IMG/VR virus record: IMGVR_UViG_3300006802_000241
Coordinates: 1 to 36,619 of that record
Source: a virus
Length of the DNA stretch: 36,619 nucleotides
Direction: 5' to 3' (one strand)
The notes beneath the pieces were generated by a model that saw nothing but the letters and a program-made list of their open reading frames with translations, was not told where the DNA came from and made no database searches. This document shows, one piece after another, positions 603 through 30,200 of the stretch. The position numbers and the translations under genes were made by a program. Positions within the stretch are counted from its first letter, which is position 1. The number at the start of each line of letters is the position of its first letter.

Positions 603-1067
603 CTACGACAGATTGTTGTTCTGAACGTAAAGAACCGTTACAGTAGCCGCACCAGCGGTAGCCGCCGTGCCAGATTGGTTGTATGTCACAACGATGTTAA
701 CGTCGCTTGCGCCAACATCAATCAAGTTCCCAATTTGAGAAACGTCTGATGTTGCAAGTACGCGAGCCTGTGCACCAACGGCTAAGTTGTCTGCATATTT
801 GTTTGCTGTAGTACCGTCGCCAATGTCGAACAGGTTCGTTGTAGCGGCGTTAAATGCAGTCGTTACATCTACTGCAATTTGGAAGATTTGGCTATTTGCT
901 GGAACGGTTGCTACGGTTGTGGTCGTGCCATCAGCACCGAAAACAACGTTTGCGCTTTGTGCCATAAGAGCGAAACCAACGTTAGCTACGTTCGTTCCGA
1001 CCGTGCTTCCAGTGGTGTCTTTGATTGTACCAGCCTTAATAGGGCCAGAAAAAGTTGTAGTACCCAT
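603..1067 (-). CDS. Ala/Thr/Val-rich putative virion protein (154 aa)
   Basis: ATG at 1067 follows a strong AGGAG site. The 154 residues are rich in Ala, Thr, Val, Gly and Asn and low in Lys and Arg, with repeated beta-like strings such as ADGTTTTVATVP and AGAATVTVLYV. This is typical of phage surface or decoration proteins and of trimeric fibre segments. No enzymatic motif is visible. It is the first gene after the capsid terminator at 1134-1163, so it may have its own promoter in the 1068-1133 leader, which also holds a dyad (AGTTACA-N3-TGTAACT, 1091-1107). A structural role is inferred from location and composition; head decoration is my first choice and tail protein my second. Confidence 0.7.
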   Translation of the reverse strand: MGTTTFSGPIKAGTIKDTTGSTVGTNVANVGFALMAQSANVVFGADGTTTTVATVPANSQIFQIAVDVTTAFNAATTNLFDIGDGTTANKYADNLAVGAQARVLATSDVSQIGNLIDVGASDVNIVVTYNQSGTAATAGAATVTVLYVQNNNLS

Positions 1068-1133
1068 GTTGAACTCCTGTCTGGGTTAAGTCAGTTACAC
1101 CATGTAACTGTCAGGGACATATGTATTCTAATA

Positions 1134-8180: not shown

Positions 8181-9688
8181 CAGTAATACTCAACTCGCCT
8201 CGTATACTTTGGCTCGTCGTCCCAATCGTCTAGGTCGGTTCTAATCCAACCGCCCTGTCTAAATCTTAGCAGTGCTTGGGTCATAGAGTCCACTAAGTCA
8301 TCGTGTTCGCCAGCAGGAAACGCGGCGGCTTCTTCGACAAGTTCTTCTGCCCACCGAGTTGGTGGAACCCAAATAATACCGCTTGCAAATAAGTCGGTAA
8401 CTGCGTTTACACGAGCTATCTTATCTTGGCCGCGAGATGGTGTAAACTCTGTGACTGGTATGCCCATAGCCCTAAGCTCAAAGATCAATGGTGAACCAGC
8501 GGCCTTGGCTTCAACGATCATCTGATCTGGCTCCCAGTCATAGTACATCTGGTAAGCGGCTTTCTTTAGCTCTGGGAACTCTAGCTTGTCCTTGAAGGCG
8601 TCAAGCAAAATTAAGTTTGGTCGTGATGCGCCATTGTCATCTGGGTGATAGAATATTCCCCATGTTGTGCAGGCTGAATAGTCAGCACGTTGCGTTTTCA
8701 AAAATGCCGTATCCCATGACTGAATAACTGCTTCGCATGGTGGTGGAGATGTATGCTCCCACTCACGCCACCACTCGCGTTTGATGAGGGCGCCTTCTTC
8801 TGACGTTGGGTCTTGCTGATACTGAGCAGACCATTTTGATATTGGTAGTTCAGCCTTGAGGGCTTCGAGTTCGTCGAGCTTCCAGAACTCTGGCCACAGC
8901 GGATTACCTGATGGCATGATTGCTGGGAGTTCGATTACCTCCCATTCATTCGAGCCTTCACGGGTTGTCGAGTTTTTAATTATCTGTCCAGTTAAGTCAC
9001 GTTGCGACCACCGCGTCATAACCAGAATGATGGCGCCCCCAGGTTGCAAACGCTGACGAGGCCCCGATGTATACCACTCGTAAACCTTGTCATAGACCTC
9101 TGGGTTGTGTGCGCCAATAGCCGCTTCTTGTTCCGAGTGCGGGTCATCAATGATCAGGATATCGGCACCCTTACCAGTTACGGCACCGCCAACACCAATA
9201 GCGAAATAATCACCACGCTTGTTTGTGTTCCAGCGCCCAGCCGCTTTTGAGTCTGACGATAAAGTTATCCCCGGAAATACTTCTTGGAAATCATCTTGCC
9301 CAATTAGGTTACGAACCTTACGGCCAAAGCCAACAGCAAGTTCTGCTGTGTGGGCTGTCTGAATAACTTTCTTTTCTGGGTAGCGTCCTAAGAACCATGC
9401 TGGGAAAAGGTATGATGCAAACTCTGACTTCGTATGCCGAGGTGGCATATTGATAATTAGGCGTTTAAGTTCCCCCTTGGCAACACGCTCAAATGCGTTA
9501 GCCATGATCTCATGGTGCTTACCATGAATGAACGATGGCCACATCCTTTTTACAAATGGAAGAAATTCTTCTCGAGCCTGTTCGACTTCAGTTGCCGACT
9601 CAAGCTCTTCAAGCAGTTTTAGAATAGCGGCTTGTTCGTCGCTTGGTATTTTGTGTAGGTTTTGTTTGAGCGCGTTAATGTCAACCAT
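8180..9688 (-). CDS. terL: Terminase large subunit (packaging ATPase-nuclease)
   Basis: 502 residues. The ATPase domain shows a Walker A variant PPRHTKSE (82-89) and Walker B ILIIDDPH (177-184), followed by 'VMTRWSQRD', the coupling motif of this family. The C-terminal nuclease domain has the first acidic residue in QSWDTAF (near 322-328) and the late acidic pair in 'AGEHDDLVDSM' (near 456-466). Length and motif order match the Terminase_6/RNase H-fold group. It cuts concatemeric DNA and drives it into the prohead through the portal. It is translationally coupled to the next gene. The small subunit is encoded about 1.6 kb upstream on the same strand, with an opposing cassette in between. Confidence 0.95.
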   Translation of the reverse strand: MVDINALKQNLHKIPSDEQAAILKLLEELESATEVEQAREEFLPFVKRMWPSFIHGKHHEIMANAFERVAKGELKRLIINMPPRHTKSEFASYLFPAWFLGRYPEKKVIQTAHTAELAVGFGRKVRNLIGQDDFQEVFPGITLSSDSKAAGRWNTNKRGDYFAIGVGGAVTGKGADILIIDDPHSEQEAAIGAHNPEVYDKVYEWYTSGPRQRLQPGGAIILVMTRWSQRDLTGQIIKNSTTREGSNEWEVIELPAIMPSGNPLWPEFWKLDELEALKAELPISKWSAQYQQDPTSEEGALIKREWWREWEHTSPPPCEAVIQSWDTAFLKTQRADYSACTTWGIFYHPDDNGASRPNLILLDAFKDKLEFPELKKAAYQMYYDWEPDQMIVEAKAAGSPLIFELRAMGIPVTEFTPSRGQDKIARVNAVTDLFASGIIWVPPTRWAEELVEEAAAFPAGEHDDLVDSMTQALLRFRQGGWIRTDLDDWDDEPKYTRRVEYY

Positions 9689-9921: not shown

Positions 9922-10007
9922 TCTAGCCTCCCTGAGAGTTTGGGTGGACGGACCAAAGGGGGATAAAATCCATCCACCCATTGCGCTTTTTCTCTCTCGG
10001 CGCTATA

Positions 10008-10079
10008 ATATATATATATTATATAATACCAGTATATAATATAATATATATTATAAATAAAAATATACAGAATATTTGT
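10008..10079. other. A/T-only-like tract 1
   Basis: About 70 bases composed almost entirely of A and T (alternating TATAAT-like runs with only a few C or G), between the divergent genes at 9921 (minus) and 10138 (plus). It contains many -10-like hexamers on both strands, so exact promoters cannot be picked by eye. It ends about 16 bases before the dispersed palindrome at 10095-10115. A very similar arrangement occurs at 20.75-20.83 kb. It may be a divergent promoter region, a DNA-unwinding element, or both. Confidence 0.6.
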
Positions 10080-10094
10080 AATATATACAATAGC

Positions 10095-10115
10095 AGAAGT
10101 TCATATGAACTTTTT
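10095..10115 (+). promoter_or_regulatory. Dispersed palindrome, site 2
   Basis: Perfect 14-base dyad AGTTCATATGAACT (10098-10111) followed by TTTT, located 22 bases before the ATG of the first plus-strand small gene. An ATG inside the dyad (10105) is in frame with that gene but lacks a ribosome site and is not taken as the start. Confidence 0.65.
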
Positions 10116-10963: not shown

Positions 10964-11042
10964 ATTGGGCTTTTCCCGGTCGACGAAAGGGTGCTAGTTT
11001 TACTGGCGCCCTTTAGTTGTATGAAAGGCTTTATAGAAGCCC
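10964..11042 (+). ncRNA. Possible structured phage small RNA
   Basis: Just downstream of the promoter candidate, AAAGGGTGC pairs with GCGCCCTTT (one G-U pair, 11-base loop; about 10986-11014). A second hairpin, GGCTT-TATAG-AAGCC, follows at about 11028-11042. No open reading frame with a ribosome site covers the region. The rest of the 10929-11281 interval holds a perfect GGGGTACCCC palindrome near 11153-11162 and the G-rich run at 11237-11260. Transcription is unproven, and no known RNA family is recognised. Confidence 0.3.
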
Positions 11043-11236
11043 ATACAGAGCGTTTCTTAAAAATATACCCCCGTACCCCCTAGGATTCCTAAACACGCTT
11101 CTGCGGCGTTCTATGGCGCTCCTATCACTATTCCAGCAAAAAGAAAAAGAAAAGGGGTACCCCCTCTTTCGTGGTGTGTGGTGATTGGATGTGTGAAATG
11201 CTGTACGACGCGCGACTGTTACGCCGTCAACATCTA

Positions 11237-11281: not shown

Positions 11282-11755
11282 TCAGCCCTGCCCCAGCAGA
11301 CGGCTCAGTCTGGCTTGGAGCTCTGCCTCGATCTCTGCCGCAGACCGTTCCCCAGCCTGCTCGATCTCGACACGGTCGCTGAAAAGACCAACTGTCTTGC
11401 CCAGCAACTCAAGCGCACGAACCCTAGCCCCATCAGTGTCTGCCTGCATGGCCTCTTCTTGAAGGCGTTTCAAAACGAACTCTTCTCGTCTGGCCTCCCT
11501 CGTGCGGCGATCCTCCTCCATCTGCGCCTGCAATGTCTTCACCCTTGCGGACACCTTGGGGTTTTGCGCTAGCTTGCAAGCCTCTTCCCAGATGGTCTTA
11601 TCTTTCATCCGCTCTGCGTCATACGCCTCTCGGTATGCGTCTGATAGGACTGCACCCTTGGCCACTGCTTGGGCGAAAGCCTCCTGTTTGCCTGTCAGTC
11701 TCTCTGGGTTTGCCCCTACCAGTCTTAGGTGACTTGGTTTCTTTGTATCGCTCAT
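11282..11755 (-). CDS. terS: Terminase small subunit
   Basis: 157 residues from the ATG at 11755, with AAGG eight bases upstream. The frame stays open to 11860, but the extra N-terminus covers the palindrome and hairpin leader and is unlikely to be translated. Residues about 16-35 (LTGKQEAFAQAVAKGAVLSD then AYREAYDAE) form the helix-turn-helix start typical of the Terminase_2 small-subunit family. 'ACKLAQNPKVSARVKTL' follows, then a coiled coil and a C-terminal segment ending SRLLGQG. It recognises the packaging site and regulates TerL. The gene is more GC-rich than the late genes and is separated from terL by a plus-strand cassette. Confidence 0.8.
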   Translation of the reverse strand: MSDTKKPSHLRLVGANPERLTGKQEAFAQAVAKGAVLSDAYREAYDAERMKDKTIWEEACKLAQNPKVSARVKTLQAQMEEDRRTREARREEFVLKRLQEEAMQADTDGARVRALELLGKTVGLFSDRVEIEQAGERSAAEIEAELQARLSRLLGQG

Positions 11756-11796
11756 GATTGCCTTGGCGGCAGGCCTTTCGGTCGCCACCCTCCTGT

Positions 11797-11816
11797 AAAA
11801 GTTCACATGAACATTA
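11797..11816 (-). promoter_or_regulatory. Dispersed palindrome, site 3
   Basis: Read on the minus strand, ATGTTCATGTGAACTT followed by TT, then ACAGGAGG. It lies 42 bases upstream of the terS ATG, with its T-run toward the gene, as at other sites. Confidence 0.6.
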
Positions 11817-11944
11817 TCACCTGCCTCGCCCCCAGTTGTCACCCCCTCTAGAAAGCCCATAGAAGGCCGTACAAGCGTTTTGTGGGCTCTAGGTCAGATC
11901 GTACCAGACACCCCTAGAAACGCTCTGTGTGGCCAAATTTGAGG

Positions 11945-11995
11945 CATACTAGATGTAGTATGTCTTTTGGATTTTGACCTACTAGATATGGTATG
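11945..11995. promoter_or_regulatory. Twin phased operator-like dyads
   Basis: CATACTAGATGTAGTATG (11945-11962) is a perfect dyad: CATACTA and TAGTATG around GATG. CCTACTAGATATGGTATG (11978-11995) is an imperfect copy, 33 bases later (start to start), close to three helical turns. They lie between divergent genes terS and the 208-residue plus-strand gene. This is the layout of a pair of repressor or activator sites acting cooperatively. The regulator is unknown. Confidence 0.55.
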
Positions 11996-12027
11996 TCGCG
12001 CTACTCGTCAGGGCTGGTCTTGGGCAT

Positions 12028-12048
12028 AAGGTTCACCTGAACTTTTTT
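12028..12048 (+). promoter_or_regulatory. Dispersed palindrome, site 4
   Basis: AGGTTCACCTGAACTT followed by a long T-run. Unlike the other plus-strand sites it has no start codon just downstream; the next gene begins about 330 bases later. A TTGACA (12071-12076) follows without a convincing -10. A perfect 7-bp hairpin with a three-base loop lies at 12106-12122. The rest of 12123-12300 shows nothing I can name. Confidence 0.5.
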
Positions 12049-12303
12049 TTGATAAATGTGATTTTTTTGATTGACATGATCTGTGGGTATGGTAAGGAAG
12101 GGTTAACAGGGGGTTCCCCTGTGGTGGTCGCGGCACCCGAACGACGCGCAAAAATAAGGGCAGAGGTCACTCCCCCGCTTGTCGCCTGAGAGACGGCTGA
12201 CGTGATGCGGCGCACACCAACCACCCCACCCGATCGGAGGTATACGTCTTGCGTGGACAGTCCAATGACGGCAAGCAAGCAGTCCCCTCTGCATTTCAGA
12301 TGT

Positions 12304-12351
12304 GGCCAGCGTATGCGCTGGCTTCACCTGCAATGTCGCAGGATTTTTTAA
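12304..12351 (+). promoter_or_regulatory. Attenuator-like leader: hairpin then short terminator
   Basis: GCCAGCG-TATG-CGCTGGC (12304-12321) is a perfect 7-bp stem. It is followed by CCTGC-N6-GCAGG directly attached to ATTTTTT (about 12329-12351), the shape of a weak intrinsic terminator. The U-tract ends about 23 bases before the ATG at 12375, so the element lies inside the leader of that gene and could control read-through into it. Confidence 0.5.
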
Positions 12352-12374
12352 CTGTCAAACTGGAGGAATTACCC

Positions 12375-13001
12375 ATGACAAAATTGAACTTCAACGGCCT
12401 GAACACCAACACCATCCAAGTTGTGGCTCTCAACGAGAAACACATCGCGGCTCGCAAGGCCGACAACGCCGAGAACACGGCTCTCAACAACGAGGCCAAG
12501 GTCGAGGCATACGCGCAACTCATAGCCGAGTTTGCTGGTCTGCCGCGCAACAAGAGCGGCAAAAACTTCTTCGCAACGGCGGTATCGACACAGATCAAAC
12601 TTGATCTGAAAGAGCAATGCGCTCTGTCGGACGCTACCCTGAAGCGCTATTACGAGAACTCGGTCGCCGCCATCAAGCACTACGGCTTCGGCAACAACAC
12701 CACACCCGAGGCTGTGGCTCAGGCTTTCGCCGATGACGGTATCACGAGCGAAGGCAAGTTGGTCAAGTTGGTCAAAGGCGAAGACCTGCCGCGCACTGTC
12801 AAGGTCGCCCAGCAAATTGCTGGCAAACTGACCGTGGCTGGCAACTTCAAAGAGGGCTGGTCTGACGAAGAGATCGAGGAGTTTCACTCGGCTCTCGCCA
12901 ACGCCCTGCGCGAGCGGCAAGCCGCCCGTGAGGCCGCTGAGGCACAAGCCGCCAGCGACAAGGTGGCCGACGAGGTCTTGGCCGCGCTGGATGCGGCCTA
13001 A
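12375..13001 (+). CDS. Ala-rich helical protein (208 aa), possible DNA-associated early protein
   Basis: Start chosen at ATG 12375 because TGGAGG lies about eight to nine bases upstream; the frame is open for 42 codons before that, but these cover the leader hairpins. The 208 residues look almost fully helical. The N-terminal half is LNFNGLNTNTIQVVALNEKH and onward. A central NKSGKNFFATAVSTQIKLD and 'LSDATLKRYYENSVAAIKHY' could hold a helix-turn-helix-like pair. The C-terminal 60 residues are a Glu/Ala/Arg coiled coil. No family is recognised. It is the first gene of the GC-rich plus-strand block and sits behind an attenuator-like leader and phased dyads, so a controlled early role is likely. 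Confidence 0.65.
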   Translation: MTKLNFNGLNTNTIQVVALNEKHIAARKADNAENTALNNEAKVEAYAQLIAEFAGLPRNKSGKNFFATAVSTQIKLDLKEQCALSDATLKRYYENSVAAIKHYGFGNNTTPEAVAQAFADDGITSEGKLVKLVKGEDLPRTVKVAQQIAGKLTVAGNFKEGWSDEEIEEFHSALANALRERQAAREAAEAQAASDKVADEVLAALDAA

Positions 13002-13008
13002 TCGGTAG

Positions 13009-13055
13009 GGCTGGGGTAACTCCCAGCCTCACCAAAAAGTTCAACTGCACTTTTT
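13009..13055 (+). promoter_or_regulatory. Composite hairpin + dispersed palindrome, site 5
   Basis: GGCTGGG pairs with CCCAGCC (13009-13028), then TCACC, then AAGTTCAACTGCACTT within flanking A and T runs (13034-13055). The T-run ends 11 bases before ATG 13067, directly before TGGAGG. The same arrangement recurs at 14552-14594 and 15731-15776. It could be terminator plus promoter, a translational operator, or an RNA-processing site. Confidence 0.6.
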
Positions 13056-15730: not shown

Positions 15731-15776
15731 TGGGGCGGCGCAAGTCGCCCCATCTAAAAGTTCAACCTAACTTTTT
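15731..15776 (+). promoter_or_regulatory. Composite hairpin + dispersed palindrome, site 7
   Basis: TGGGGCG pairs with CGCCCCA, extended by a G-U and a C-G pair around a GCAA loop (15731-15752). Then TCT, then AAGTTCAACCTAACTT with flanking runs (15756-15776). The right half is degenerate. It ends 10 bases before ATG 15787, directly before GGAGG. Confidence 0.58.
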
Positions 15777-16649: not shown

Positions 16650-16970
16650 ATGAAAGCTACAATGAAAGACTTGTCCAAGGTTGTTGCTAGACGTTACAAC
16701 ATCGGGACACACGAACTCACTGGCGCAGGCCGCGCCCGTGTGTTTTTCAAACCGCGCTCACTTTTCTGCTGGATTGCTCGCAACCACCTCGGCAAATCAA
16801 CCACGCAGATCGGTGACTTTCTGAACCGAGACCACAGCACAATCTGCTATGCCACCCAACGTGCTATCGAGTTTGGCATCGACCCTGTAGTTGTCGGCTC
16901 AATTCTTAACGAGGCGCATCAGCTTCGTGAAAAAGTTCATGTGAATAAATTCGGAGGAAAAAATGTCTAA
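16650..16970 (+). CDS. Free-standing DnaA domain IV-like DNA-binding protein
   Basis: 106 residues. From about residue 9 the sequence follows the C-terminal, DnaA-box-binding domain of bacterial DnaA: VVARRYNI, LTGAGRARVFFKPRSLFCWI, ARNHLGKSTTQIGDFLNRDH, then STICYATQRA. The RDHST motif (60-64) is the base-contacting signature, and Arg28/Arg36 fit the upstream basic contacts. No AAA+ ATPase domain is attached, so it should bind DnaA-box-like sites without ATP-driven opening. It may direct replication, repress host initiation or regulate transcription. ATG 16650 has CGGAG upstream; a Met four codons later is possible. The end of the gene contains palindrome site 8 and overlaps the next start. 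Confidence 0.82.
   Translation: MKATMKDLSKVVARRYNIGTHELTGAGRARVFFKPRSLFCWIARNHLGKSTTQIGDFLNRDHSTICYATQRAIEFGIDPVVVGSILNEAHQLREKVHVNKFGGKNV
16930..16950 (+). promoter_or_regulatory. Dispersed palindrome, site 8 (inside a gene end)
   Basis: AAGTTCATGTGAATAAAT with a preceding A-run; GTTCATGTGAAT is a one-mismatch dyad. It lies in the last codons of the DnaA-like gene but 12 bases before ATG 16963, the same spacing as at intergenic sites. Confidence 0.5.
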
Positions 16971-17850: not shown

Positions 17851-17896
17851 GGAGCGAGCGATGTGCCACCGTCATCGCTCGCTCCATATATTTTTG
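17851..17896 (+). terminator. Strong intrinsic terminator
   Basis: GGAGCGAGCGATG (17851-17863) pairs perfectly with CATCGCTCGCTCC (17873-17885), a 13-bp stem with a nine-base loop, followed by ATATATTTTTG. It should end the transcript running from 16650 to 17804. Confidence 0.8.
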
Positions 17897-17912
17897 TTCG
17901 TATGAACTTTTT
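17894..17912 (+). promoter_or_regulatory. Dispersed palindrome, site 9
   Basis: TTGTTCGTATGAACTT plus T-run. The GTTC-N4-GAAC core is intact but the inner bases differ from the usual CA-NN-TG. It follows the terminator directly and ends 11 bases before ATG 17924, just before TTGGAGAG. Confidence 0.58.
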
Positions 17913-18923: not shown

Positions 18924-20677
18924 AATGGAAACTCCGTGTCGTCGTCGTCGTCTTCTGGTGATAAGAACGGGTCGCTTACAATCTGGTTGTATCTTGTCGT
19001 AACATTATCATAGACCAGCGAGGCACTACCTTGCTTACCCACCCAAGCAAACCGACACTTCCAAATGTGTATGTCAGACACTGGGCTGATCGGGTCTTTC
19101 CTGTGGACAGTCATACCCACATCGGCCTTGGCAAACCAAGCCGCAGACCCAGAGATATCATATCCTTTTGGCACAGGAACATTACCATCCATACCGCGTT
19201 GCATCTTAGTAGGATGGGCAACAAACCAGATGTGTATGCCGTGCGCCTGAGCGAACACCCGCAACTGGGTAAGCATATCACTAATCCACTCTGTCTCACT
19301 GATTGTGGTTGGACGCTGAATGTAGTTGTACGGGTCGATGATTACACCTCGCACACCATGTCGCATGACTGCGATCTTCATACGCTCGACGATGCTTTCG
19401 ATTGTGCTTAGAGAACCGTCCGCTTGATACAGAAAAGAAAAGTGCGACTGAACAAAATCTTTTCCGCGCTCTAGTTCGCTCTTGCTTAGACGCTTAGTAG
19501 CGCCATCAAAGAATGGCATACGGCAATACTTTGAGATGAGTTTTGCAATATGAAGGCGTGGTTCATTCTCGAAAGAGCAGATGGCAAACTTCCAGTCCTT
19601 TCGCTCGGCGAGGTTGACCATGATCTGATCAATAAATTCCGACTTGCCTGACGACGGGATGCCTGTAACAACAGTGAGTTGCCCCTCGACGATTGTGTAG
19701 TAGTCATCGACGTTGAAGTATCCCGTGCTTTCTCCACGCCCCATTCCCTTATCATAAATCTCATCAACCTGCTCGAAGAACTTGCTTGCGTCATACAGTC
19801 CAGCTACAGGCCACGGTTTACATTGAACCACAGCCTCACGCAATGCGTCAACGCCGTGCTTGACCAACACATCATTGGCATCCTTGCACCCTTCTGGCCA
19901 TTCAACCTTCCAACACCTATCTTTCCCAATGCGCCTAGCTATTTCCTCTGCCATAGCCTGCCCAGCAGTGTCACCATCGGTGGCCACAACTATCCTATCT
20001 GCTAGGTCTATCTTGTCCTTGGCGTCCCAGATAAAACGGAACTTGTTATCGTTGGATGGGTCTATCTTTCCGTCTGTCACCTTCATCGGCGCACCATTGG
20101 GAACCGACACTGCTGTGTCCAGACCTGTCTCCATGATTGATAGTGCATCCATCTCACCCTCAACGATAATAAACCACTCGCCAGCGGTGAAGTTTTGCAG
20201 GTTGAAGAATGATTGTGGACTACCGTTACAGCTAAAGCCCTTGGTCTCAAGCGACCTGATCTTGTGTGCGTATTCCTTACCATCCTTAACGAATGGAAAT
20301 GTTATGCAGTCAGTTTCTTTTTGCAGTGAGCCGATATAATTCCTGATGTAACCAACGCCAGCTTTGATCGCTGTCTTTTCGCTGATGCCCCTGCTCTCAA
20401 GCCACTCGGCCACTGGTCTATTTATTCTCTCGGTCTTTATAGGCTTTGCTGGTTTGTCCACCACTACCTCAGTTGCCATGCCACCCTTCTCAATCTTCAC
20501 GAACCCGTTCTCGTTGCAATGCCAACACTGAAATGCAACACCATCATTTTCTACACGCAGACTCATCGTCCGCTCGTGTGACTTGCGCCTTGTCTGTGAA
20601 CACCTCGGACACTGAACCTTGTGTTGACCACTCTGTAACCCGAAGGCCGCGCCTAAAATCTCACGTTGTAATTCCAT
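18920..20677 (-). CDS. T7 gp4-like primase-helicase
   Basis: 585 residues if started at ATG 20677, which has GGGGGT five bases upstream; an ATG four codons earlier is less well placed. The N-terminal zinc-binding domain has Cys23-x2-Cys26 and Cys51-x2-Cys54 (CPRC and CWHC). The TOPRIM domain shows FIIVEGEMDALSI (Glu near 173) and VVATDGDTAGQ (near 231). The RecA-like helicase has Walker A GIPSSGKSE (near 334) and Walker B-type RGVIIDPYNYI, with a later HPTKMQRG segment. It should synthesise primers and unwind DNA 5'-3' as a ring. The leader contains palindrome site 10, a DnaA-box-like site and an A/T tract. The C-terminus is very acidic (SPEDDDDDTEFPF), similar to SSB-type tails. Confidence 0.92.
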   Translation of the reverse strand: MELQREILGAAFGLQSGQHKVQCPRCSQTRRKSHERTMSLRVENDGVAFQCWHCNENGFVKIEKGGMATEVVVDKPAKPIKTERINRPVAEWLESRGISEKTAIKAGVGYIRNYIGSLQKETDCITFPFVKDGKEYAHKIRSLETKGFSCNGSPQSFFNLQNFTAGEWFIIVEGEMDALSIMETGLDTAVSVPNGAPMKVTDGKIDPSNDNKFRFIWDAKDKIDLADRIVVATDGDTAGQAMAEEIARRIGKDRCWKVEWPEGCKDANDVLVKHGVDALREAVVQCKPWPVAGLYDASKFFEQVDEIYDKGMGRGESTGYFNVDDYYTIVEGQLTVVTGIPSSGKSEFIDQIMVNLAERKDWKFAICSFENEPRLHIAKLISKYCRMPFFDGATKRLSKSELERGKDFVQSHFSFLYQADGSLSTIESIVERMKIAVMRHGVRGVIIDPYNYIQRPTTISETEWISDMLTQLRVFAQAHGIHIWFVAHPTKMQRGMDGNVPVPKGYDISGSAAWFAKADVGMTVHRKDPISPVSDIHIWKCRFAWVGKQGSASLVYDNVTTRYNQIVSDPFLSPEDDDDDTEFPF

Positions 20678-20738: not shown

Positions 20739-20829
20739 TGTGGATTAAAAAGTTCATATGAACTATTAGTATATATAATATATTATTTATTATATATTAT
20801 ATTATAATATATATTATAATATATATATA
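20739..20829. other. Origin-like region: DnaA box, palindrome site 10 and A/T tract 2
   Basis: TGTGGATTA (20739-20747) matches the complement of the DnaA box TTATCCACA at eight of nine positions. It is followed directly by AAGTTCATATGAACT (palindrome core 20751-20764, identical to that of site 2) and then about 65 bases of almost pure A/T to 20829. The region lies between the unknown 104-residue gene and the primase-helicase gene, and on the minus strand it forms that gene's leader. A TTGACA with no good -10 is also present on the minus strand. Origin function is inferred. Confidence 0.5.
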
Positions 20830-21144
20830 CTAATTAGCATTAGATCGATAAAACTTCTTGAAACGCTTCCTCCTGTATAGTTGATCGGCTGGTTCAGCCG
20901 CTAGTGTTGTTTGTATTTCTTTCCTTACAGCATCGTCGTCAAGCATAGCAAGGGCGCAGACCACGCCGAAGTCTGGCGTGTCTAGCCACTCACGAACTTC
21001 CTCACGGCGCCTCTTGTCCGTCAGGCTCGCATCGTAAATAGCTTGGGATATTACCGCTTTCCATAGGCGACACTCGGATAATTGATCTGGGCTTCTCTCG
21101 GCTGTGACCCCAGTATATATGCTTCTCTCTGACCTGCCTGTCAT
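20830..21144 (-). CDS. Small protein overlapping rusA (104 aa), unknown
   Basis: 104 residues. The likely conserved core begins near residue 24 (SECRLWKAVISQAIYDASLT) and includes 'REWLDTPDFGVVCALAMLDD', a pattern I know from small phage replication-module proteins of unknown function. The C-terminus is basic (YRRKRFKKFYRSNAN). The only ATG (21144) lies inside the RusA catalytic region, with no strong ribosome site, so the gene overlaps rusA by 143 bases in another frame. No internal ATG, GTG or TTG before the core is available. Initiation may depend on coupling, or a frameshift could join the two; see findings. It ends at the edge of the A/T tract. Confidence 0.6.
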   Translation of the reverse strand: MTGRSERSIYTGVTAERSPDQLSECRLWKAVISQAIYDASLTDKRRREEVREWLDTPDFGVVCALAMLDDDAVRKEIQTTLAAEPADQLYRRKRFKKFYRSNAN

Positions 21145-21456: not shown

Positions 21457-22365
21457 ATGACTATAACAAATAACGCAGGATTGCCAAAAGTATTTCTGGA
21501 CTTTGCCAAGGCCGACAAGTACAGCCGTGGTGATGCCGACATCTCAGTTACACAGCTAATCGACAGCCCTCGTGTTCGCATGATGAAAGAACATTATCGC
21601 AATGATCTTACATCTGATGTCAGCGACATGATCTGGGCTTTGTTTGGCACGGCAGTTCATCACGTTCTCGAGACAGCCAAAGAAGAGAAGGGTGTTGTCA
21701 TGGAGCAACGCATGATGGCTGAGGTCAATGGCTGGACACTGTCTGGTGCCGTGGACTATCAGCGCGTCTACCCTGTCGGTGATGGCTCTGGGGATATGGC
21801 CTGCGATGTTATAGATTACAAGGTTACAAGCGTGTGGTCTGTGATCTACGGCAAAGAGGATTGGGTTAGACAGCTTAACTGCTATGCGTACCTCATCGAG
21901 AAAAACAAATCAGCAAAAGTAAAGAACCTACAAATCTGTGCCATCTGCCGCGACTGGAATAGGCGCGATGCAATGATGAAGCCAGACTATCCACAACAAC
22001 CAGTTGTGCTCATAGACATTCCGCTCTGGTCTGAGGACGAGCGCAGGGGTTATGTCGAGGGGCGTATTGCCATGCACCAAGAGGCGCAAATGAAATACGA
22101 TCTCGATCAGGAGTGGACGCTTTGTTCTAACGATGAGCGTTGGGCAAAGCCAGACACCTTCGCTGTTAAGGCGAAGAACCGCAAGCGAGCATTGCGTGTA
22201 TTACCAACACGCGAAGCGGCTGAAGACTACATCAATAATTCTGAGGACAAGAATTTAGTTATCGAGCATAGGGTAGGGGAATTTACACGATGCTCTAACA
22301 ACTACTGCGGCGTTGCAGATAAGTGTGGTCAATGGATGGGCGACCGCCCGAAAACAGATTGGTAA
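21457..22365 (+). CDS. PD-(D/E)XK exonuclease, RecB/Cas4-like
   Basis: 302 residues from ATG 21457, with CGGAGG upstream. The nuclease core shows 'FGTAVHHVLE' (His68/69), Asp100 in LSGAVD, and the central Asp120-Tyr-Lys122 (DVIDYKVTSVW), followed by 'RQLNCYAYLIEK' (Gln139). This order is that of the RecB-type PD-(D/E)XK family. The last part has three Cys (TRCSNNYCGVADKCGQW), reminiscent of the iron-sulfur-bound tail of Cas4/AddB-type nucleases. With the annealing protein encoded next, it should form a two-component recombination system, producing single strands for annealing. Divergent from rusA with a 26-base spacer. Confidence 0.85.
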   Translation: MTITNNAGLPKVFLDFAKADKYSRGDADISVTQLIDSPRVRMMKEHYRNDLTSDVSDMIWALFGTAVHHVLETAKEEKGVVMEQRMMAEVNGWTLSGAVDYQRVYPVGDGSGDMACDVIDYKVTSVWSVIYGKEDWVRQLNCYAYLIEKNKSAKVKNLQICAICRDWNRRDAMMKPDYPQQPVVLIDIPLWSEDERRGYVEGRIAMHQEAQMKYDLDQEWTLCSNDERWAKPDTFAVKAKNRKRALRVLPTREAAEDYINNSEDKNLVIEHRVGEFTRCSNNYCGVADKCGQWMGDRPKTDW

Positions 22366-22379
22366 TAACGGAGAACCAA

Positions 22380-23090
22380 ATGAGTAAGGTAGCATTTGAA
22401 AAACTACAGAGTGTGGAATACTCAAACCACATTGAGGTTAAGGCTGGTAAGTTTAAGTATTTGAGTTGGGCTTGGGCGTGGAAACTAATCAAGCAAAACT
22501 TTCCAGAGGCAACATTCACTAAGCATGAGAACCCCCAGGGGTATCCATGTTTTTTTGATCACAACGGCAATGCGTTCGTTAAGGTCAGCGTTACGATTGA
22601 AGGCACGACCCACACCGAGTATCTCTCAGTGATGGACAATCGCATGAAGTCTATCCAGAACCCCACAGCAGATGAGGTTAACAAGTCATTACAGCGGTGC
22701 TTGGTCAAGGCCATTGCATATCATGGGCTGGGCATTGAGTTGTGGATTAACGAGGACTTGCCCGACGACACAGCCGCACCCAAGATCAGTGAGCCTAAGA
22801 AGAAAAGTTCACCCGAACAAAACACTAAGCCAATCTCTGTAGAAATACAGCCAGTTAACAGTGACGCAGACCCAACCGTCATTGAGGCTGATGCCAAGGC
22901 GTCGATAGAACAGTTGATCGTTGCAACCTTCGAGGAGTTTATCCCGACCTGCAATACAGAGAGTGAGATTAACTCGTTCTTTAAGTCTAACAGACACGCA
23001 TACAATATGCTTAGTGAAGCAGACCAGAAAAAAATTAACATTATCTTTGGTGACCGTAAGAAGGCTGTTACCAAAGGTACCATCGCATAA
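22380..23090 (+). CDS. Single-strand annealing protein, DUF1071/Sak-like
   Basis: 236 residues from ATG 22380 (ACGGAG upstream; the in-frame ATG at 22323 lies within the previous gene). Residues 20-60 (GKFKYLSWAWAWKLIKQNFP) and 'SVMDNRMKSIQNPTADEVN' then 'KSLQRCLVKAIAYHGLGIEL' and 'NEDLPD' match the DUF1071/Sak family. These proteins coat and anneal single-stranded DNA in phage recombination. After residue 140 a Lys/Pro/Ser-rich linker leads to an extra helical C-terminal domain (about 175-236). A copy of the GTTC-N4-GAAC palindrome (22807-22818) lies in the linker codons. Partner: the upstream exonuclease. Confidence 0.85.
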   Translation: MSKVAFEKLQSVEYSNHIEVKAGKFKYLSWAWAWKLIKQNFPEATFTKHENPQGYPCFFDHNGNAFVKVSVTIEGTTHTEYLSVMDNRMKSIQNPTADEVNKSLQRCLVKAIAYHGLGIELWINEDLPDDTAAPKISEPKKKSSPEQNTKPISVEIQPVNSDADPTVIEADAKASIEQLIVATFEEFIPTCNTESEINSFFKSNRHAYNMLSEADQKKINIIFGDRKKAVTKGTIA

Positions 23091-23978: not shown

Positions 23979-24222
23979 GACAAACTCAGATGAGGCAATC
24001 GAGCGAGTGGCCACTTGTATACGGGGGCAGATCATGGCCGAGTTATCAGCCAATGATTTAACCGAGGTGGCCAACAAGATACGGGACAGCTTTGATTGGA
24101 CAGCTATTGCTCAGGTGGTAGCACGGGAAACAGTGTCTGCCATACTGCCAGAAAAAGTTCTTGCGAACATTTCAAAGATCAGGGCAAAGGTGAACCTCTT
24201 AACAGGTGTAAGCGATGAGTGA
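23962..24222 (+). CDS. Small helical protein (86 aa), GTG start, unknown
   Basis: GTG at 23962 is chosen because GGAG lies eight to nine bases upstream; an ATG at 23914 lies deep inside the HNH gene. The product is helical throughout: NEIDKTNSDEAIERVATCIR, then LTEVANKIRDSFDWTAIAQV and 'VSAILPEKVLANISKIRAKV'. There is no recognised domain. A GTTC-N4-GAAC copy (24156-24167, GTTCTTGCGAAC) lies in the codons of KVLAN. The stop overlaps the next start by eight bases. A role as a small replication-recombination accessory protein is positional inference. Confidence 0.58.
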   Translation: MNEIDKTNSDEAIERVATCIRGQIMAELSANDLTEVANKIRDSFDWTAIAQVVARETVSAILPEKVLANISKIRAKVNLLTGVSDE

Positions 24223-24667
24223 TATTAGAACAGCCGCCATAAACTTTGAGGCCGTTAAGGTTTCAATGTCGCAGACAAAGGACGGGGTAATCTTGCGGCT
24301 TGCTGTACACCCCAACGAATGTCCCCCTAGTCTGCACACTGATTGGGTCGGGTCTCGCTATATGGTAGCGATGGTTCGGCTTAATGACGAAGACCAACCT
24401 ATGATTAGCGAACAGCAGGCAGAGACAAACAAACTTATAGCTAGCGCAGGATTACTGTGTCGCAACGATGAGTTTCAAAAGTTTATGCAAGACGTTGGGC
24501 TAATAGCAGACGATGTGGTACCGAGCGAGGAGAAGGCTGTCGATGCTCTCCGCTCACACCTTGGCATCAGGTCTCGGTCTGATCTTAATAATAACTCTGA
24601 AGCGCGTGAGGCGTTTAAGGTTATGCGTGACGAATTTACAAAATGGAAGAAAGGTTACAAACCATGA
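24215..24667 (+). CDS. Conserved phage protein (150 aa), unknown, recombination module
   Basis: 150 residues. The N-terminal beta-like segment 'GVILRLAVHPNECPPSLHTD' and 'VGSRYMVAMVRLNDED' is a recurring pattern in phage and plasmid proteins of unknown function. It is followed by a helical part containing 'FQKFMQDVGL' and a C-terminal 'ALRSHLGIRSRSDLNNNSEA', then 'FKVMRDEFTKW'. This C-terminal motif occurs with the same N-terminal domain in phage genomes near single-strand annealing genes. No catalytic residue is obvious. ATG 24215 overlaps the preceding gene, and the TGA overlaps the ATG of the next (ATGA). Confidence 0.68.
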   Translation: MSDIRTAAINFEAVKVSMSQTKDGVILRLAVHPNECPPSLHTDWVGSRYMVAMVRLNDEDQPMISEQQAETNKLIASAGLLCRNDEFQKFMQDVGLIADDVVPSEEKAVDALRSHLGIRSRSDLNNNSEAREAFKVMRDEFTKWKKGYKP

Positions 24668-24879
24668 ACGACAAAAGCGGAGTAGATGATTTGGTATCTG
24701 CCGAGGAGATCGCAAAGATTATCCACGTTAGTTTACCCACAGCATATCGCTTGATCAGGACTGATAGCGATTTCCCTGCGCCAGTTACAATCTTGCAGAA
24801 GCACAGACGGTGGCGCAAGGCTAGCGTTGTTGAATGGTTCAACAACAAACTTAACCATGCCAAAAGTAACGGAGGTTAA
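24664..24879 (+). CDS. AlpA/excisionase-type helix-turn-helix protein
   Basis: 71 residues from ATG 24664. 'VSAEEIAKIIHVSLPTAYRL' forms a winged-helix start with the recognition helix in LPTAYRLIR. Then 'DFPAPVTILQKHRRWRKASV' and 'VEWF' complete the AlpA/HTH_17 pattern, in which a Trp-Arg-x3-Val-x2-Trp end is typical. Such proteins are small transcriptional regulators or excisionases. With no integrase in view, a regulator is more likely; the twin dyads at 11945-11995 are one possible target. The start overlaps the previous stop by four bases. Confidence 0.8.
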   Translation: MNDKSGVDDLVSAEEIAKIIHVSLPTAYRLIRTDSDFPAPVTILQKHRRWRKASVVEWFNNKLNHAKSNGG

Positions 24880-24880
24880 C

Positions 24881-25309
24881 ATGGCTACTGATTTTGACTT
24901 CACAAAAATAAAAGTGGACACGAACGTAAAGATGCCAAACGCAGAGGACAAACGTAAGAAAGTTGCGTCCTCAACGATTGTAGCAAAACGTATGCGTAAG
25001 GGTCACTCGATTGTTGTTCCGACTAAGAAACTTGCAGACGTTATGAGGACCGCTCTACGGGGTGTAGGTAAGTCTTCTTCTATGCGTGTGCAGGATGATG
25101 GCTCGTATCGTGTATGGTGCAATGGTCGCCTCAAGGGGCGCGTCACAAAGAAAGCCAAGCAAGTAGCGAGCGCACAGGAACTTCGCAGAAAGCTGGAGGC
25201 CGAAGGCGCCAAGTATGAGAGGCGTCTGTCTGAGGACGATCTTAACATACTGCAACGCGCTATTCATGGCGGGATTGGTCGTCAATCTTTTATAAGAGAT
25301 TTGCCGTAG
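24881..25309 (+). CDS. Basic protein (142 aa), possible nucleic-acid binder
   Basis: 142 residues from ATG 24881, with ACGGAGG upstream; the next upstream in-frame ATGs lie in the HTH gene. The N-terminus is polar (ATDFDFTKIKVDTNVKMPNA). The central part is basic: 'VAKRMRKGHSIVVPTKKLAD' and 'VMRTALRGVGKSSSMRVQDD' followed by 'RVWCNGRLKGRVTKKAKQ'. A helical C-terminus ends FIRDLP. The charge suggests DNA or RNA binding, but no recognised domain confirms it. It is the last gene of the recombination operon and is followed by a strong hairpin. Confidence 0.65.
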   Translation: MATDFDFTKIKVDTNVKMPNAEDKRKKVASSTIVAKRMRKGHSIVVPTKKLADVMRTALRGVGKSSSMRVQDDGSYRVWCNGRLKGRVTKKAKQVASAQELRRKLEAEGAKYERRLSEDDLNILQRAIHGGIGRQSFIRDLP

Positions 25310-25979: not shown

Positions 25980-27018
25980 ACCGCTTCCATTTTAAGAAGT
26001 CAGCGGCCTGTTCCAGATCGGCGAAGCAAGTCATACGGTTGACCTGCGACTCAGCTTCTGGGTCGATGACAACCCCTATAGCATGGCCGTAGTTCTGTTC
26101 TTCATATCCCTTAACTGTAGCGTACTCATCCATAAACTTGTAGCCACGCGCACGAGCCAACCACGGAGTTCTATTATGTGATGGCAGTTCGATCTGAGAC
26201 AGCGCCCATGTGTGCTTGTGGCCAGAGATATACAGATCGGCATCACCAGTAAACTTAGCGGCCTTCATCTGCCCGTGTAGTTGGTTCCACATTGAATGGC
26301 CAGCCATATCATGTGCGGCGAATATCTTTGTGTCTGTTCCATTGGGAAATGAGATGCGGACTTTTGCCTGCCAATCCTCATAGATGTTCTTAGGAGACCT
26401 CATCCACTTCACTGGGTCACCAGCACCAGTCCACATATCGTGGTTGCCTGCGATCAGGATTAGCGGGTCAATAGCTTTGATCAGCCACTCTACAAGTAGC
26501 CAAGCCTGCTGTGCTGATGTGTCCTGTTTGGAATACAATCTAGCCAAACGACCAACCCAGTTGTTGTGCTGATCGCCGACAGAACAACCATGCATACCCT
26601 CTGTGTTCTTAATGATCTCAACATGGCGGCGCAACGTGGGCCAGTCACACCCGTTATCATCAACGTGTGGGTCTCCTAGGAAAGCCAGACAGATTGGGTC
26701 GTTGCTTTTAGCCTTTACATTAATCCACTTGCGATGTTCCTTAGCCCGCTTGCGTCGCTGGAAGCTGTCAGTCATCCGATCAATAAGTTCATCTGCACTT
26801 ATTTCTTCATCTGGCAGTATGGGGATTTCCAGCCCCTTGTTTTCCTCATAGCGAACTTTGAAGGGCTGTACCCCCTCTTGCTTTGCTCTGGCAATTCTGT
26901 TCTGCAATGTGTTGCGTGGGATGCCGAGATGAAGAGCGGCCTGAGTTACTGAGCCGTGTATCTCGACAGCATCAACAGCCTCCATCATAACGCTTTTATC
27001 TAATGGCTTTTGAGTCAT
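25966..27018 (-). CDS. HTH + calcineurin-like metallophosphoesterase
   Basis: 350 residues from ATG 27018, with AGGAG nine bases upstream; an in-frame ATG at 27051 is less well placed. Residues 10-45 hold a helix-turn-helix (SVTQAALHLGIPRNTLQNRI). The phosphoesterase domain has all expected motifs: FLGDPHVDDNG (Asp116, His118), SVGDQHNNW (147-154), AGNHDMW (190-196), AAHDMAGHS, and SGHKHTW (265-271). The enzyme would cut phosphodiester or phosphomonoester bonds using two metal ions. The fused HTH suggests a DNA-linked role. The family occurs widely in marine phages, usually near replication genes. A palindrome copy (26782-26805) lies in codons 72-78. Confidence 0.88.
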   Translation of the reverse strand: MTQKPLDKSVMMEAVDAVEIHGSVTQAALHLGIPRNTLQNRIARAKQEGVQPFKVRYEENKGLEIPILPDEEISADELIDRMTDSFQRRKRAKEHRKWINVKAKSNDPICLAFLGDPHVDDNGCDWPTLRRHVEIIKNTEGMHGCSVGDQHNNWVGRLARLYSKQDTSAQQAWLLVEWLIKAIDPLILIAGNHDMWTGAGDPVKWMRSPKNIYEDWQAKVRISFPNGTDTKIFAAHDMAGHSMWNQLHGQMKAAKFTGDADLYISGHKHTWALSQIELPSHNRTPWLARARGYKFMDEYATVKGYEEQNYGHAIGVVIDPEAESQVNRMTCFADLEQAADFLKWKRSKKS

Positions 27019-27217
27019 CACCGTTTTCTCCTGTGTATGCACTCGGCTCAACGAGTACAGTTTCTATACAGCCAACAAACCGCTTCCCCTCGGGTACCTG
27101 TCTGGCCGCAATTTCACATTGATAAAGATTGTCGAAGTTTATGTAGTTCATATTATTTGAACTATGGTCTTGCCACACCAAGGTATAGAACACTAAAACT
27201 GCACAGCACTTAATCAT
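26996..27217 (-). CDS. Small exported protein (73 aa)
   Basis: 73 residues. The N-terminus (MIKCCAVLVFYTLVW) is a short hydrophobic segment, likely a signal or anchor; Cys4-Cys5 could also suggest a lipoprotein, but no clean lipobox is seen. The mature part contains 'YQCEIAARQVPEGKRFVGCI', with two Cys 17 residues apart, which may form a disulfide. Its start overlaps the giant gene's stop (ATGA), so it is translated together with that gene. It overlaps the metallophosphoesterase gene by 23 bases. A GTTCA-N9-TGAAC dyad (27144-27164) lies within. Function is unknown. Confidence 0.6.
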   Translation of the reverse strand: MIKCCAVLVFYTLVWQDHSSNNMNYINFDNLYQCEIAARQVPEGKRFVGCIETVLVEPSAYTGENGDDSKAIR

Positions 27218-30200
27218 TGTATAGAAAGCATAATTTTATTGGCTCTCTGGGTCAACCTTTGAATTGCCTCATCAATCTGGTCTAGCCGCTTGGACTTTGT
27301 GGTTTCGTTTACACGGGGGTTCTTAGAAATTTCAGACTTCTGACGTATCAATCTGTTGCGAGCGTTGTTGAGTGAGTTGATCGCCGCATAGACACGAAGT
27401 TCATCCTTATAGTCTTCACGAATTTTTCTGACTCTGTACTTGTCGCCTTTCTGTACCGCGTCTTTAAGTTCAGCATAGGCGTACATGATGTTGTCTCGGT
27501 TCTTGATGAACAGTTCTGTGTCTTCTCGTGACGACACAGAGCCAACAAGTTTTCTGGCGAACGGTATATTCCTAACGCCACCCTCTGAGAACAACTCTGC
27601 TGGGTCTGACAGGGCGGTAAAGCCAACTCGGCCAACACGCTCAGTAAATCGTCCAATGCCGCCAGTCAAATAACCAAACCAGTAGTCGATTGTGTCTGGA
27701 GAAATGTCTACAAATCCCGGCCTCACCTCGCTCCCACCTGTCACCGAATTGAGTGTGCTTGCTAGCCACTTAGATGATGGCGATGTGGTTGACCAGAACA
27801 GTTGGCTGTCTGGTTTCTGTAAACCAAACTGCCCTTGCTCTTTGTAGATAGGCTTGTCTGCAAAGTCTCTGTTCTCAATGATATCAATGAACGGGTCTAT
27901 CACTGTAGGTGCCGCAAAGTTTGCGAAACTTTCTGTGCCGCCAAGCGGATTGATGGTATCGATAGCCGTGCCAACAATCGAAGATGCTGTCTCGCCTGCT
28001 GTCGCCGCGCCGCGAGTAAAGCGACTTGATGCTCTGCCAAGATTGGTCGCCATGTTCAATCCGTATGGTAATGGGATTGTGATGTATGATCTGTCTCCAA
28101 GCATACCAAAGGTTGGGATGATAAGGTTATGCTCCAAAACGTAGTCAGGTATTTTGTCGTACTGCTCTTGCCCATCGTCGTCCTCATCAGACGCCAGAGC
28201 ATTAAGCTGGTCTTGTAGGAAGCCAAGCACAACGGCGCCCATCCATATCTTCCGAACCTTGGGAGAACGAACTGCGGCATTAAGCAAGGCGAACGTGCCT
28301 TGCAGTGATGCGTTATAGAACAGATACATACTGTTCATAAAGGTTTTGTACTCACCACCCTTGGCAAAGTTAACGGTTACATTACGAGCCGCCTGAGCCG
28401 CACGTTCCCTAGTGAACCCCTTGTCTAACAAAGCCTTATATGTCGCAACACGAATACCGTTTTCAACCACAGTGTTGTAGTCTTCAAGGAACCGCAAGAG
28501 CGAGCCAGCCTTTTCACCAGCAAAACTGTTCTTCATTTTATTATAAGCACCACGGATGCCGTCCTCAGATATATCACCAAGAAGTGTATCAATATCTGCC
28601 ATCTGGTCAGCAACACTATTCACCATGTTGGTAGCGTTCTTACCGCCAGCATCAACAAAGTCTTGGTATATAGCGCCCCACTCTCCGCTGATGTTTCCAT
28701 CTCTAATGGCTTGCTTCAATCCCCTCAGTGCTGACGGAACATTTTTAACAACTGACTTGGCAATCTCATCGATGTCATACTGATTAATGTTTGTTAGGCC
28801 AGTTGATAAGTCTCGAACAAAGTTAGTGATAAAGAACTCTGGGTTGTAGCTTGTGTTGATGTTAGAAAGATATCTATTGATGTTAGCTAGACTGCGGAAA
28901 AGTGCAGATGTACTTTTTGGTGACAAGCCAGCACTACCTTTCATTGCCATAGCAATGCGTGGGTCTTTAATATCAATAATAATTTCTTGCCCGCCACGCT
29001 TAACAATGAGGATGTTCTCTCTGTCTTTGAACCTTGGGTCTGGCGCATAACTTACATAACCGTTCTTGTTTAGTACGCGCCGCGCACGTCCGCGCTCAAG
29101 AACTTCGGCGTAACCGCTAGTAAGTTCTGGGTCTGCTTCTAGTATCTGCAAGAAAGAGTCACCGACTTTGTTGCGCTCACCCCTGTCGATTGCACGTTGA
29201 TGCTGTACGAATACATTGCCAAGCAGATCAACAGCAAATCCAGAGCGCCCCAATGCTGAGATGTCTTCCTTGCCACGGACGCCGAACCTATTGGGGCTAC
29301 GGCCACCGCCGCCCTGCATATCTGACAGTTCATTCTCCTCATCCATGAACCCACGGAGAGGGACGTAGTCTTGGTACACTGGTTCTGTTGCCTGTGTTTC
29401 AGGGTCTGTCTCGAAATAGACTGGGTCGTCTGGGCTTACAAGTCCCTCGTTAACTCTGATCTCGTTGGTACGACGCACAATATCACGGACGCCAGACCGC
29501 ACGAGTTCCATCTTCCTGCGTTGTTCCTGCGGCAGAGACTCTACCCAAGCTATGATACGGTCTGCGTCTGCGTCTGACATACCAGAGCCAGCTTCGTTGG
29601 TTTTGTCGATCTTCCTAATCGCGGCGTTACGTTCCTTAGCGTGAAGGGCGTACAGATACATCTCAACAGCACCCAAATCTTTTGATCTGCTGTTCTCAAT
29701 ATATCTTCGTATGTCTGATGACACACCCATCAAAGAGTTAACCTGAGCGCCATCCAATGCAATGTCCTTGATGACACGGAGAAGCGGCTCAAACAAATCT
29801 TTCTGGGCTTTCTCAAGCCTTGCGCCAACAACACCATTGTACAATTCCTCGCGCATATAGGTGTCCATGGCGTCTGTAATGTTAAGACCCTTAGCTCTTA
29901 GCTCGTCAATCATGCGACCAACTGGCAACATCGAGTCTTGGAATTTCTGTAGCAGATCGTCTACTACTTGTTGTGTTTCTGCCCGTGCATCAATGAAGCC
30001 GACCTTCTTGGCACCACGAACTGCGAACCCTAGAACACGAGCGATTGTATTAGACGACGCGCTATACAGTAAGGAATCAATTTTACTATTGGCATTGTCG
30101 GCTAACTGCACCGAACCGAATGTGGTCGGGCGATAACTGAGCATTGGTTGTCCAGATACAAACCCAGCCGCAGGAACACGGCTTTGAGCCGATACCTGAT

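Follow-up and report, generated by a model that had tools for sequence, protein, structure and literature searches.

Two sets of candidate operator sites appear to share one divergent region of a phage genome: a lineage-specific twin operator, and two sites of a larger operator set, dispersed through the phage genome, that is most likely read by an AlpA-like protein. We place the probability of this reading, which comes from sequence comparison, at roughly 0.55. The stretch analysed is positions 1 to 36,619 of IMG/VR virus record IMGVR_UViG_3300006802_000241, hereafter the window. The dispersed sites occur in numbers well above chance, recur at matching places in relatives with diverged cores, and prefer gene junctions over several genomes; recognition helix and motif change jointly, the helix classes having been assigned by eye. 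From these patterns we infer probable binding, the likely identity of the protein, and a presumed action as repressor or roadblock.

The divergent region and the twin dyad

The preliminary description of this DNA had reported operator-like dyads between the divergent terminase small-subunit gene (terS) and the first rightward gene (P0001), and this setting is borne out, the word "early" for the rightward gene being taken from its position. The features of the region are as follows.

11282-11755, minus strand: terS, terminase small subunit (PHROG 51, E 1.8e-17)
11797-11816, no strand: dispersed palindrome site A, core GTTCACATGAAC at 11801-11812, abutting the terS -10-like box
11813-11842, minus strand: promoter-like site for terS, GTGACA-18-GATAAT, a consensus match only
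11943-11964, no strand: twin dyad copy 1, GGCATACTA-GATG-TAGTATGTC, 22 bp
11976-11997, no strand: twin dyad copy 2, GACCTACTA-GATA-TGGTATGTC, 22 bp, 33 bp from copy 1
12027-12046, no strand: dispersed palindrome site B, core GTTCACCTGAAC at 12031-12042, on the early-gene side
12375-13001, plus strand: P0001, first rightward gene, 208 aa, conserved family of unknown function with an all-helical model

The terS start is an ATG that we picked within a reading frame open from 11860. A scan of 11700-12450 for the sigma-70 consensus alone gave one promoter-like site (shuffled mean 0.7), that of terS, and none for the early gene. The neighbours of the twin dyad are terS and P0001, and no recognised repressor gene adjoins it. 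P0001 belongs to a family that is conserved at the same position in relatives; its predicted structure is all-helical (pLDDT 76), and a domain scan gave no family match above the cut-off. As a possible repressor reading the twin dyad it was not favoured, with no PDB match at E 0.001 and one uncharacterised viral match. An Rfam search of the divergent region returned no match up to E 5, and neither its DNA nor P0001 matched cultured phages.

The first dyad, CATACTA-GATG-TAGTATG, lies at 11945-11962 with perfect 7-bp arms, and the imperfect repeat that had been reported beside it, CCTACTA-GATA-TGGTATG at 11978-11995, differs from it at three positions and starts 33 bp after it. When two bases are added per side, the four half-sites read GGCATACTA, GACATACTA, GACCTACTA and GACATACCA, with the consensus GACATACTA; since each is at most one base off this consensus, each dyad is 22 bp long. 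At up to three mismatches, dyad 1 has four matches in the window, as compared to a mean of 0.02 in window shuffles: itself on each strand, dyad 2, and one within the terL gene at 8539. A looser definition of the twin dyad gave six pairs in the window and 0 positives among 300 first-order Markov sequences; apart from the present pair, the other five occupy tracts of the ATATAT type, around 10003 and at 20770-20808. A single 7-bp dyad would not be unusual at such a genome size, and it is because of the close repeat that the twin dyad is significant rather than due to chance.

At 10.5 bp per helical turn, 33 bp corresponds to 3.1 turns, a geometry that fits a putative cooperative pair three turns apart. 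Two dimers of one protein could bind side by side on the same face of the helix and, being upstream of both transcription units, may modulate one or both. Two similar dyads at helical spacing are present, adjacent, separated by a near-integral number of turns and situated between divergent genes, as in tandem operators of the lambda type. Unlike those operators, the twin dyad has no adjoining recognised repressor gene, and no promoter overlap was found: the dyads begin at 11943 and the promoter-like site occupies 11813-11842. Of the preliminary description, the part that the sequence supports is that of putative, operator-like dyads in a divergent control region.

The pair was seen in three contigs only, namely the window, G002 and G003, which are those of this phage that cover the place. 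G002 and G003 are near-identical to the window (5 and 7 differences over 1,720 positions, respectively, none within the dyads, which are identical). As a pair, the 22-bp dyad was not found in the relatives' loci or records scanned; a twin dyad of any kind was found in one of 46 terS-early regions of relatives (L210, with a different sequence) and in 0 of 141 random pieces. The twin dyad is accordingly read as a putative lineage-specific paired operator and, given this distribution, is unlikely to be a general switch of the clade.

The preliminary description had gone further, suggesting that cooperative binding at the dyads could be the early/late switch, with the AlpA-like protein as one candidate regulator; in that reading the pair would control terS and the early operon. 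The divergent position, the 33-bp spacing and four half-sites close to one consensus all suit such a switch, yet AlpA-like homologues are present in eight other lineages in whose scanned loci the pair is absent, and both dyads are clear of the only promoter-like site found. We therefore consider the switch quite improbable, and the AlpA-like protein a poor candidate for regulator of the twin dyad.

The analysis yielded no protein partner for the twin dyad. A host regulator was considered through a scan for GRCATACTANNNNTAGTATGYC over one genome per species (84,980 species) and rejected, as the 14 stretches recovered compare to approximately 15 expected by chance according to our own estimate; the matches are in scattered taxa, and the two from Woeseiaceae represent a single locus (94% identical). 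A viral scan for a single dyad plus part of its flank gave five stretches, two of them from the same phage and the other three having no tblastn match to window proteins, which is chance level by a rough estimate. In a sub-clade, arrays of the form TACTAG..CTAGTA upstream of terL look similar, but differ in spacing and place, and were not equated with the twin dyad. These arrays are dense and lie in an AT-rich stretch (L060 6636-6711, L074 6654-6783, L085 6632-6753, and other loci), and G011 carries a second, similar copy near its primase.

The dyads could instead act as RNA, forming hairpins in a rightward transcript that serve as an attenuator or weak terminator. Plus-strand folds are indeed more stable than minus-strand folds (-13.0 vs -6.5 for dyad 1; -7.2 vs -3.9 for dyad 2), both dyads together can form one long hairpin (-21.2), two of the three arm differences retain a G-U pair on the plus strand by our reading, and a T-rich stretch after dyad 1 scored as terminator-like. 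No known rightward transcript begins to the left of the dyads, however; dyad 2 contains a C-U mismatch and lacks a T tract, and the stems are AT-rich. We consider this reading quite improbable as well.

A replication origin is a further, improbable alternative, in which the dyads would be initiator-binding repeats, perhaps read by a stand-alone DnaA domain-IV protein encoded at 16650-16970. This protein matches PF08299 (1.3e-15) and PDB 1j1v (1.5e-5) and has an RDHST signature; a tblastn comparison with seven relatives did not recover it, so its restriction to this lineage may equal that of the dyads. An AT-rich 18-nt tandem repeat at 12044-12079 adjoins the dyads, and one DnaA-like box with a mismatch is situated at 12021-12029. 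Against an origin, the recognition site of DnaA domain IV is an asymmetric 9-mer, the window shows no enrichment of DnaA-like boxes (28 vs 32.5 expected), and both exact boxes (16940 and 21389) are far from the dyads.

Several other elements were observed in and around this region. The leader before P0001 (window 12185-12260, CCACCCGNTCGGAGGTAYACG ... GTCCAATG) is common to G005 and partly to L122 despite differing surroundings; it has no Rfam match in the window and is possibly a structured early leader. Directly before the P0001 start, a hairpin CCTGCAATGTCGCAGG followed by a T run (12327-12348) is terminator-like and a possible attenuator. Blocks resembling AAACGCTTGTACGGCCTTCTATGGGC flank terS on both sides (11845-11932 and 11040-11100), have counterparts preceding terS in relatives, for example L018, as judged by eye, and perhaps represent a packaging (pac/cos) site. 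Relatives also contain RNAs resembling type III hammerhead ribozymes (L122 6221-6275, just before an apparent P0001 homologue; G012 21820-21877, in the early region; L188 2866-2919; and further copies in G009, G017, G021, G033 and G038), and none was found in the window. Matches to RF00008 at E <=1e-3 occur in 7 of 50 records with 23-42 bits, none above the Rfam cut-off of 48.5; the L188 match has 27.9 bits (E 0.095).

Palindromes dispersed over the window and related genomes

Sites A and B, which flank the twin dyad and had been missed in the preliminary description, may be the principal control elements of the divergent region, as part of an operator set dispersed through the phage genome. 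The palindrome concerned, AAAAAGTTCANNTGAACTTTTT, has 18-19 copies in the window. Other than A and B, the sites are as follows.

1167-1186, no strand: just past the major head protein stop
10095-10114, no strand: beside an AT-rich tract, upstream of small plus-strand ORFs
13035-13054, no strand: after P0001
14574-14593, no strand: ATPase/HNH junction, with a matching place in G005, G011, G012 and G043
15756-15775, no strand: after an HNH-family gene
16931-16950, no strand: centre 22 nt before an ATG
17892-17911, no strand: centre 22 nt before an ATG
19438-19457, no strand: within the primase/helicase gene
20748-20767, no strand: upstream of primase, beside an AT-rich tract, with a matching place in G011, G038, G039 and G043
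22803-22822, no strand: within a Sak-like gene
24153-24172, no strand: near the end of the ORF preceding 24215
24910-24929, no strand: among the weaker sites, 31 nt past the AlpA-like gene
26783-26802, no strand: within a repair-exonuclease gene
28898-28917, no strand: within the 2975-aa gene
30773-30792, no strand: within the 2975-aa gene
34070-34089, no strand: within the 2975-aa gene

Scored with a matrix that was built from the window's own sequence, 19 sites exceed 12, as compared to a mean of 0.68 and a maximum of 2 in 50 shuffles. Counts that involve no trained matrix agree in direction: exact GTTCA-2-TGAAC occurs four times and exact AAAGT-8-ACTTT six times in the window, each against about 0.04 expected. 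A symmetric 20-mer model, its matrix likewise trained on the genome scanned, gave 18 sites in the window and four in an extension provided by record G001 (99% identity to the window across its initial 20 kb, and 18 kb beyond the window's end), for a total of 22 in about 54.8 kb vs 1.2 under a Markov model. Based on rough ORF calls, 5 of these 22 are intergenic, and several strong ones are inside long genes.

The 2975-aa protein (27214-36141, minus strand) carries a large polyvalent protein domain, LPD38, and has three strong palindromes in its coding sequence. ATATAT-rich tracts at 9995-10095 and 20765-20830 each adjoin a dispersed palindrome (10099 and 20752) and may represent origins or strong promoters. 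A Mu-gpT-DE RNA (RF03012, 62 bits), found in L068 and L089 as well, lies on the minus strand at window 1065-1116, downstream of the head protein gene.

Relatives have their own versions of the palindrome (AAAGTTA.., TTTGTAC.., AAACTTTAC.., among others), often at matching places. Over 49 records, the pattern AAAGTTNNNNNNAACTTT at up to one mismatch has 106 plus-strand matches, as compared to 9 for its backward control (our sums), and 27 of the 49 contain at least one. Using matrices trained on each genome's own sequence, the counts against Markov expectation were 11 vs 1.3 for AAAGTTAANNTTAACTT in G011, 21 vs 1.5 and 18 vs 1.4 for AAAAGTTACATGTAACTTTT in G005 and G012, respectively, 16 vs 2.6 for a motif similar to AAAAGTTACATGTAACTTTT in G038, 19 vs 1.6 for ATTTGTACCATGGTACAAAT in G043, and 12 vs 2.4 for a weaker version in G008. 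For the window and G038 the second-ranked motif was used, the top-ranked one being a coding repeat or off-register; this also applied to the top-ranked matrix motif of G039, for which a k-mer list was used instead and gave six AGTTAA-2-TTAACT. G009 has the motif TTTGTAC..GTACAAA, and G020 the motif AAACTTTACGTAAAGTTT, with seven sites at up to three mismatches.

Among cultured phages, the more distant Synechococcus phage MinM2 (OQ594354) has 37 sites of GGTTCANNNTGAACC at up to two mismatches, 18 of them exact, a motif that the matrix search missed and that was recognised in a later scan. Eighteen of the 37 are intergenic in a genome that is 9.5% non-coding, and 13 are centred 25-36 nt ahead of an annotated start. 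No clear palindrome set was found in 50 kb each of the cultured relatives HTVC027P, 023Pt_psg01, DSL-LC04 and HTVC023P, the matrices again being trained on the sequences scanned; a matrix motif in HTVC023P (23 vs 4.6) was weak and judged unconvincing.

A site within 150 nt of terS was found in 33 of 45 regions, many of which are from closely related contigs, vs 2 of 45 for control patterns in this motif test; the rest of the same regions has 0.64 matches per kb (control 0.31). A strict palindrome test near terS was positive in 2 of the 45. According to our tallies, a site precedes primase in five of the six genomes holding that gene (window 20748, G011 26166, G038 42324, G039 12788 and G043 24869; G012 has none), is present at the ATPase/HNH junction in five of seven (window 14574, G005 2977, G011 33340, G012 23891 and G043 31357; G038 and G039 have none), and follows the head protein in four of seven (window 1167, G005 16669, G043 45393 and G008 8214; G012, G038 and G039 have none). 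In six genomes taken together, 41 of 95 sites fall between genes, the non-coding share of bases being 3-7%, a count that uses rough ORF calls, leaves out G039 and G008, and has the weakest rows dropped (5 of 21 in G005, 4 of 18 in G012, 1 of 16 in G038 and 2 of 19 in G043). Of these 95, 15 are centred 7-9 nt past a stop codon and 11 are centred 21-24 nt ahead of an ATG.

Such positions, in the gap between a stop codon and a ribosome site, would also suit RNA elements at gene junctions, and the MinM2 sites that precede starts (13 of 37) could form a GC-rich hairpin by our reading. Alternatively, the palindromes could serve to organise or package the DNA, in the manner of parS or centromere sites. 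That several window sites are within long genes also counts in favour of these non-operator readings. Several window copies (of the GTTCAACTGCAC type), however, contain a mismatch by which the RNA stem is interrupted on either strand, sites of the G043 type have no T tail, and no ParB-like protein was identified among the ORFs scanned against PHROGs and Pfam. Taken together, we regard these readings as unlikely, and retain dispersed operators as the preferred one.

An AlpA-like protein as candidate reader

If the palindromes are operators, a phage-encoded dimeric protein would bind them, most likely the AlpA-like one.

24643-24879, plus strand: AlpA-like HTH_17 protein, the candidate proposed to read the dispersed palindromes

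The protein exceeds the HTH_17 cut-off (33.2 against 27), falls below that of Pfam AlpA (PF05930; 17.1 bits against 21), and matches PHROG 66, "excisionase and transcriptional regulator"; a profile of its family hits PDB 8c3t, a phage regulator of the AlpA family (2.1e-5). Homologues are present in nine lineages, including that of the window. The gene was found in six of eight genomes (window, G011, G012, G038, G039 and G043), in the relatives near SSB or a 24215-type gene as in the window, and in 4 of 10 further records (G009, G017, G020 and G033). It was not found as an ORF in G005 and G008, nor in G010, G021, G031, G035, G042 and G044, all of which are fragments; G005 carries the motif and has no match to the window primase, RusA and exonuclease, the block that houses the gene elsewhere. 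MinM2 has an annotated AlpA-family protein.

A motif site is located at the 3' end of the AlpA-like gene in seven of nine lineages (window, G011, G038, G039, G043, G009 and G020), those of the window and G020 being weak. In MinM2 a site lies just upstream of the start of the AlpA-family gene, and in G012 there is none beside it. A tree of the nine proteins places G012 beside G043 and G009, and G020 beside G011. G012 nevertheless has an AAAGTTA-type motif and an SRTALF helix resembling the helices of G011, G038 and G039. In G020, motif and helix (TKPTLY) are both distinct from those of the others. Both thus differ from their nearest kin in recognition helix as well as in motif, classes that were assigned by eye over nine lineages. 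This joint change against the tree points to the AlpA-like protein as the palindrome reader and makes it the best candidate for that role, rather than for the twin-dyad role proposed for it in the preliminary description: what it tracks is the different, dispersed palindrome.

An AlpA-like dimer at site A, which adjoins the terS -10-like box, would block terS; at other gene junctions, dimers would serve as operators or transcription roadblocks and so coordinate classes of phage genes. We know of no HTH_17 protein that reads such palindromes, and AlpA-like proteins are familiar mainly as excisionases and local activators.

Relation to known systems and significance

Many stoperators, the dispersed repressor sites of certain mycobacteriophages, lie near gene boundaries, and phage phiC31, a temperate phage of Streptomyces, has repressor sites of inverted-repeat form. 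The dispersed operators of L5 and phiC31 appear to be the closest known kind of system. PMC6550527 describes up to about 30 short stoperators over the genomes of cluster A mycobacteriophages (L5, Bxb1), mostly oriented with transcription, their consensus varying among related phages in step with the repressor (see also PMC9283540); according to PMC4557955, stoperators are asymmetric and monomer-bound, and L5 and phiC31 have 18-30 dispersed repressor sites. The window phage shares with L5-type phages the presence of many related sites across one genome, but its sites are two-fold symmetric palindromes of 20-22 bp rather than asymmetric and transcription-oriented. The L5-type phages, which are temperate, have a known repressor, whereas no integrase or immunity repressor was found among the ORFs scanned, a subset of those of the window and extension, which form an incomplete genome. 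The consensus varies between the relatives, and in G012 and G020 the helix changes alongside it against the tree (by eye), which may correspond to the joint variation of consensus and regulator in L5-type phages. Multiple dispersed repressor sites are likewise found in phiC31, where both sequence and regulator differ. Compared with AlpA/HTH_17 phage regulators and excisionases, the window protein matches HTH_17 and PHROG 66 and is below the Pfam AlpA cut-off. Palindromic sites, no detected lysogeny module, and the class of the proposed reader set this system apart from known dispersed-site systems.

In the literature searched, which covered few subscription journals, no paper was found on the dispersed-palindrome system, nor on a dispersed palindromic regulon for an AlpA/HTH_17 protein. 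The nearest cultured terL relatives of the window phage include pelagiphages, and the words "palindrom" and "promoter" are absent from the main text of two pelagiphage papers (PMC12753301, PMC9599517).

By itself, the twin dyad amounts to a modest detail of one lineage. More broadly, we tentatively suggest that an aquatic phage clade with no detected integrase, together with the more distant cultured cyanophage MinM2, may run a genome-wide operator regulon of 6-37 observed sites per genome, many of them located at gene junctions, with an AlpA-like, excisionase-type HTH protein as global regulator or roadblock, whose specificity and sites would be swapped together as in immunity groups, possibly without lysogeny, and to which the twin dyad would add a second, phage-specific layer. 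The dispersed operators suggest global transcription control in phages that have been little studied and, because cultured MinM2 has its own 37-site version, the question of how such phages order their genes is accessible to bench experiments. Should AlpA-like proteins be the readers, a global role would be added to those of the family, and the coupled variation of a protein with some 20 sites would offer a tractable case of regulator-site co-evolution.
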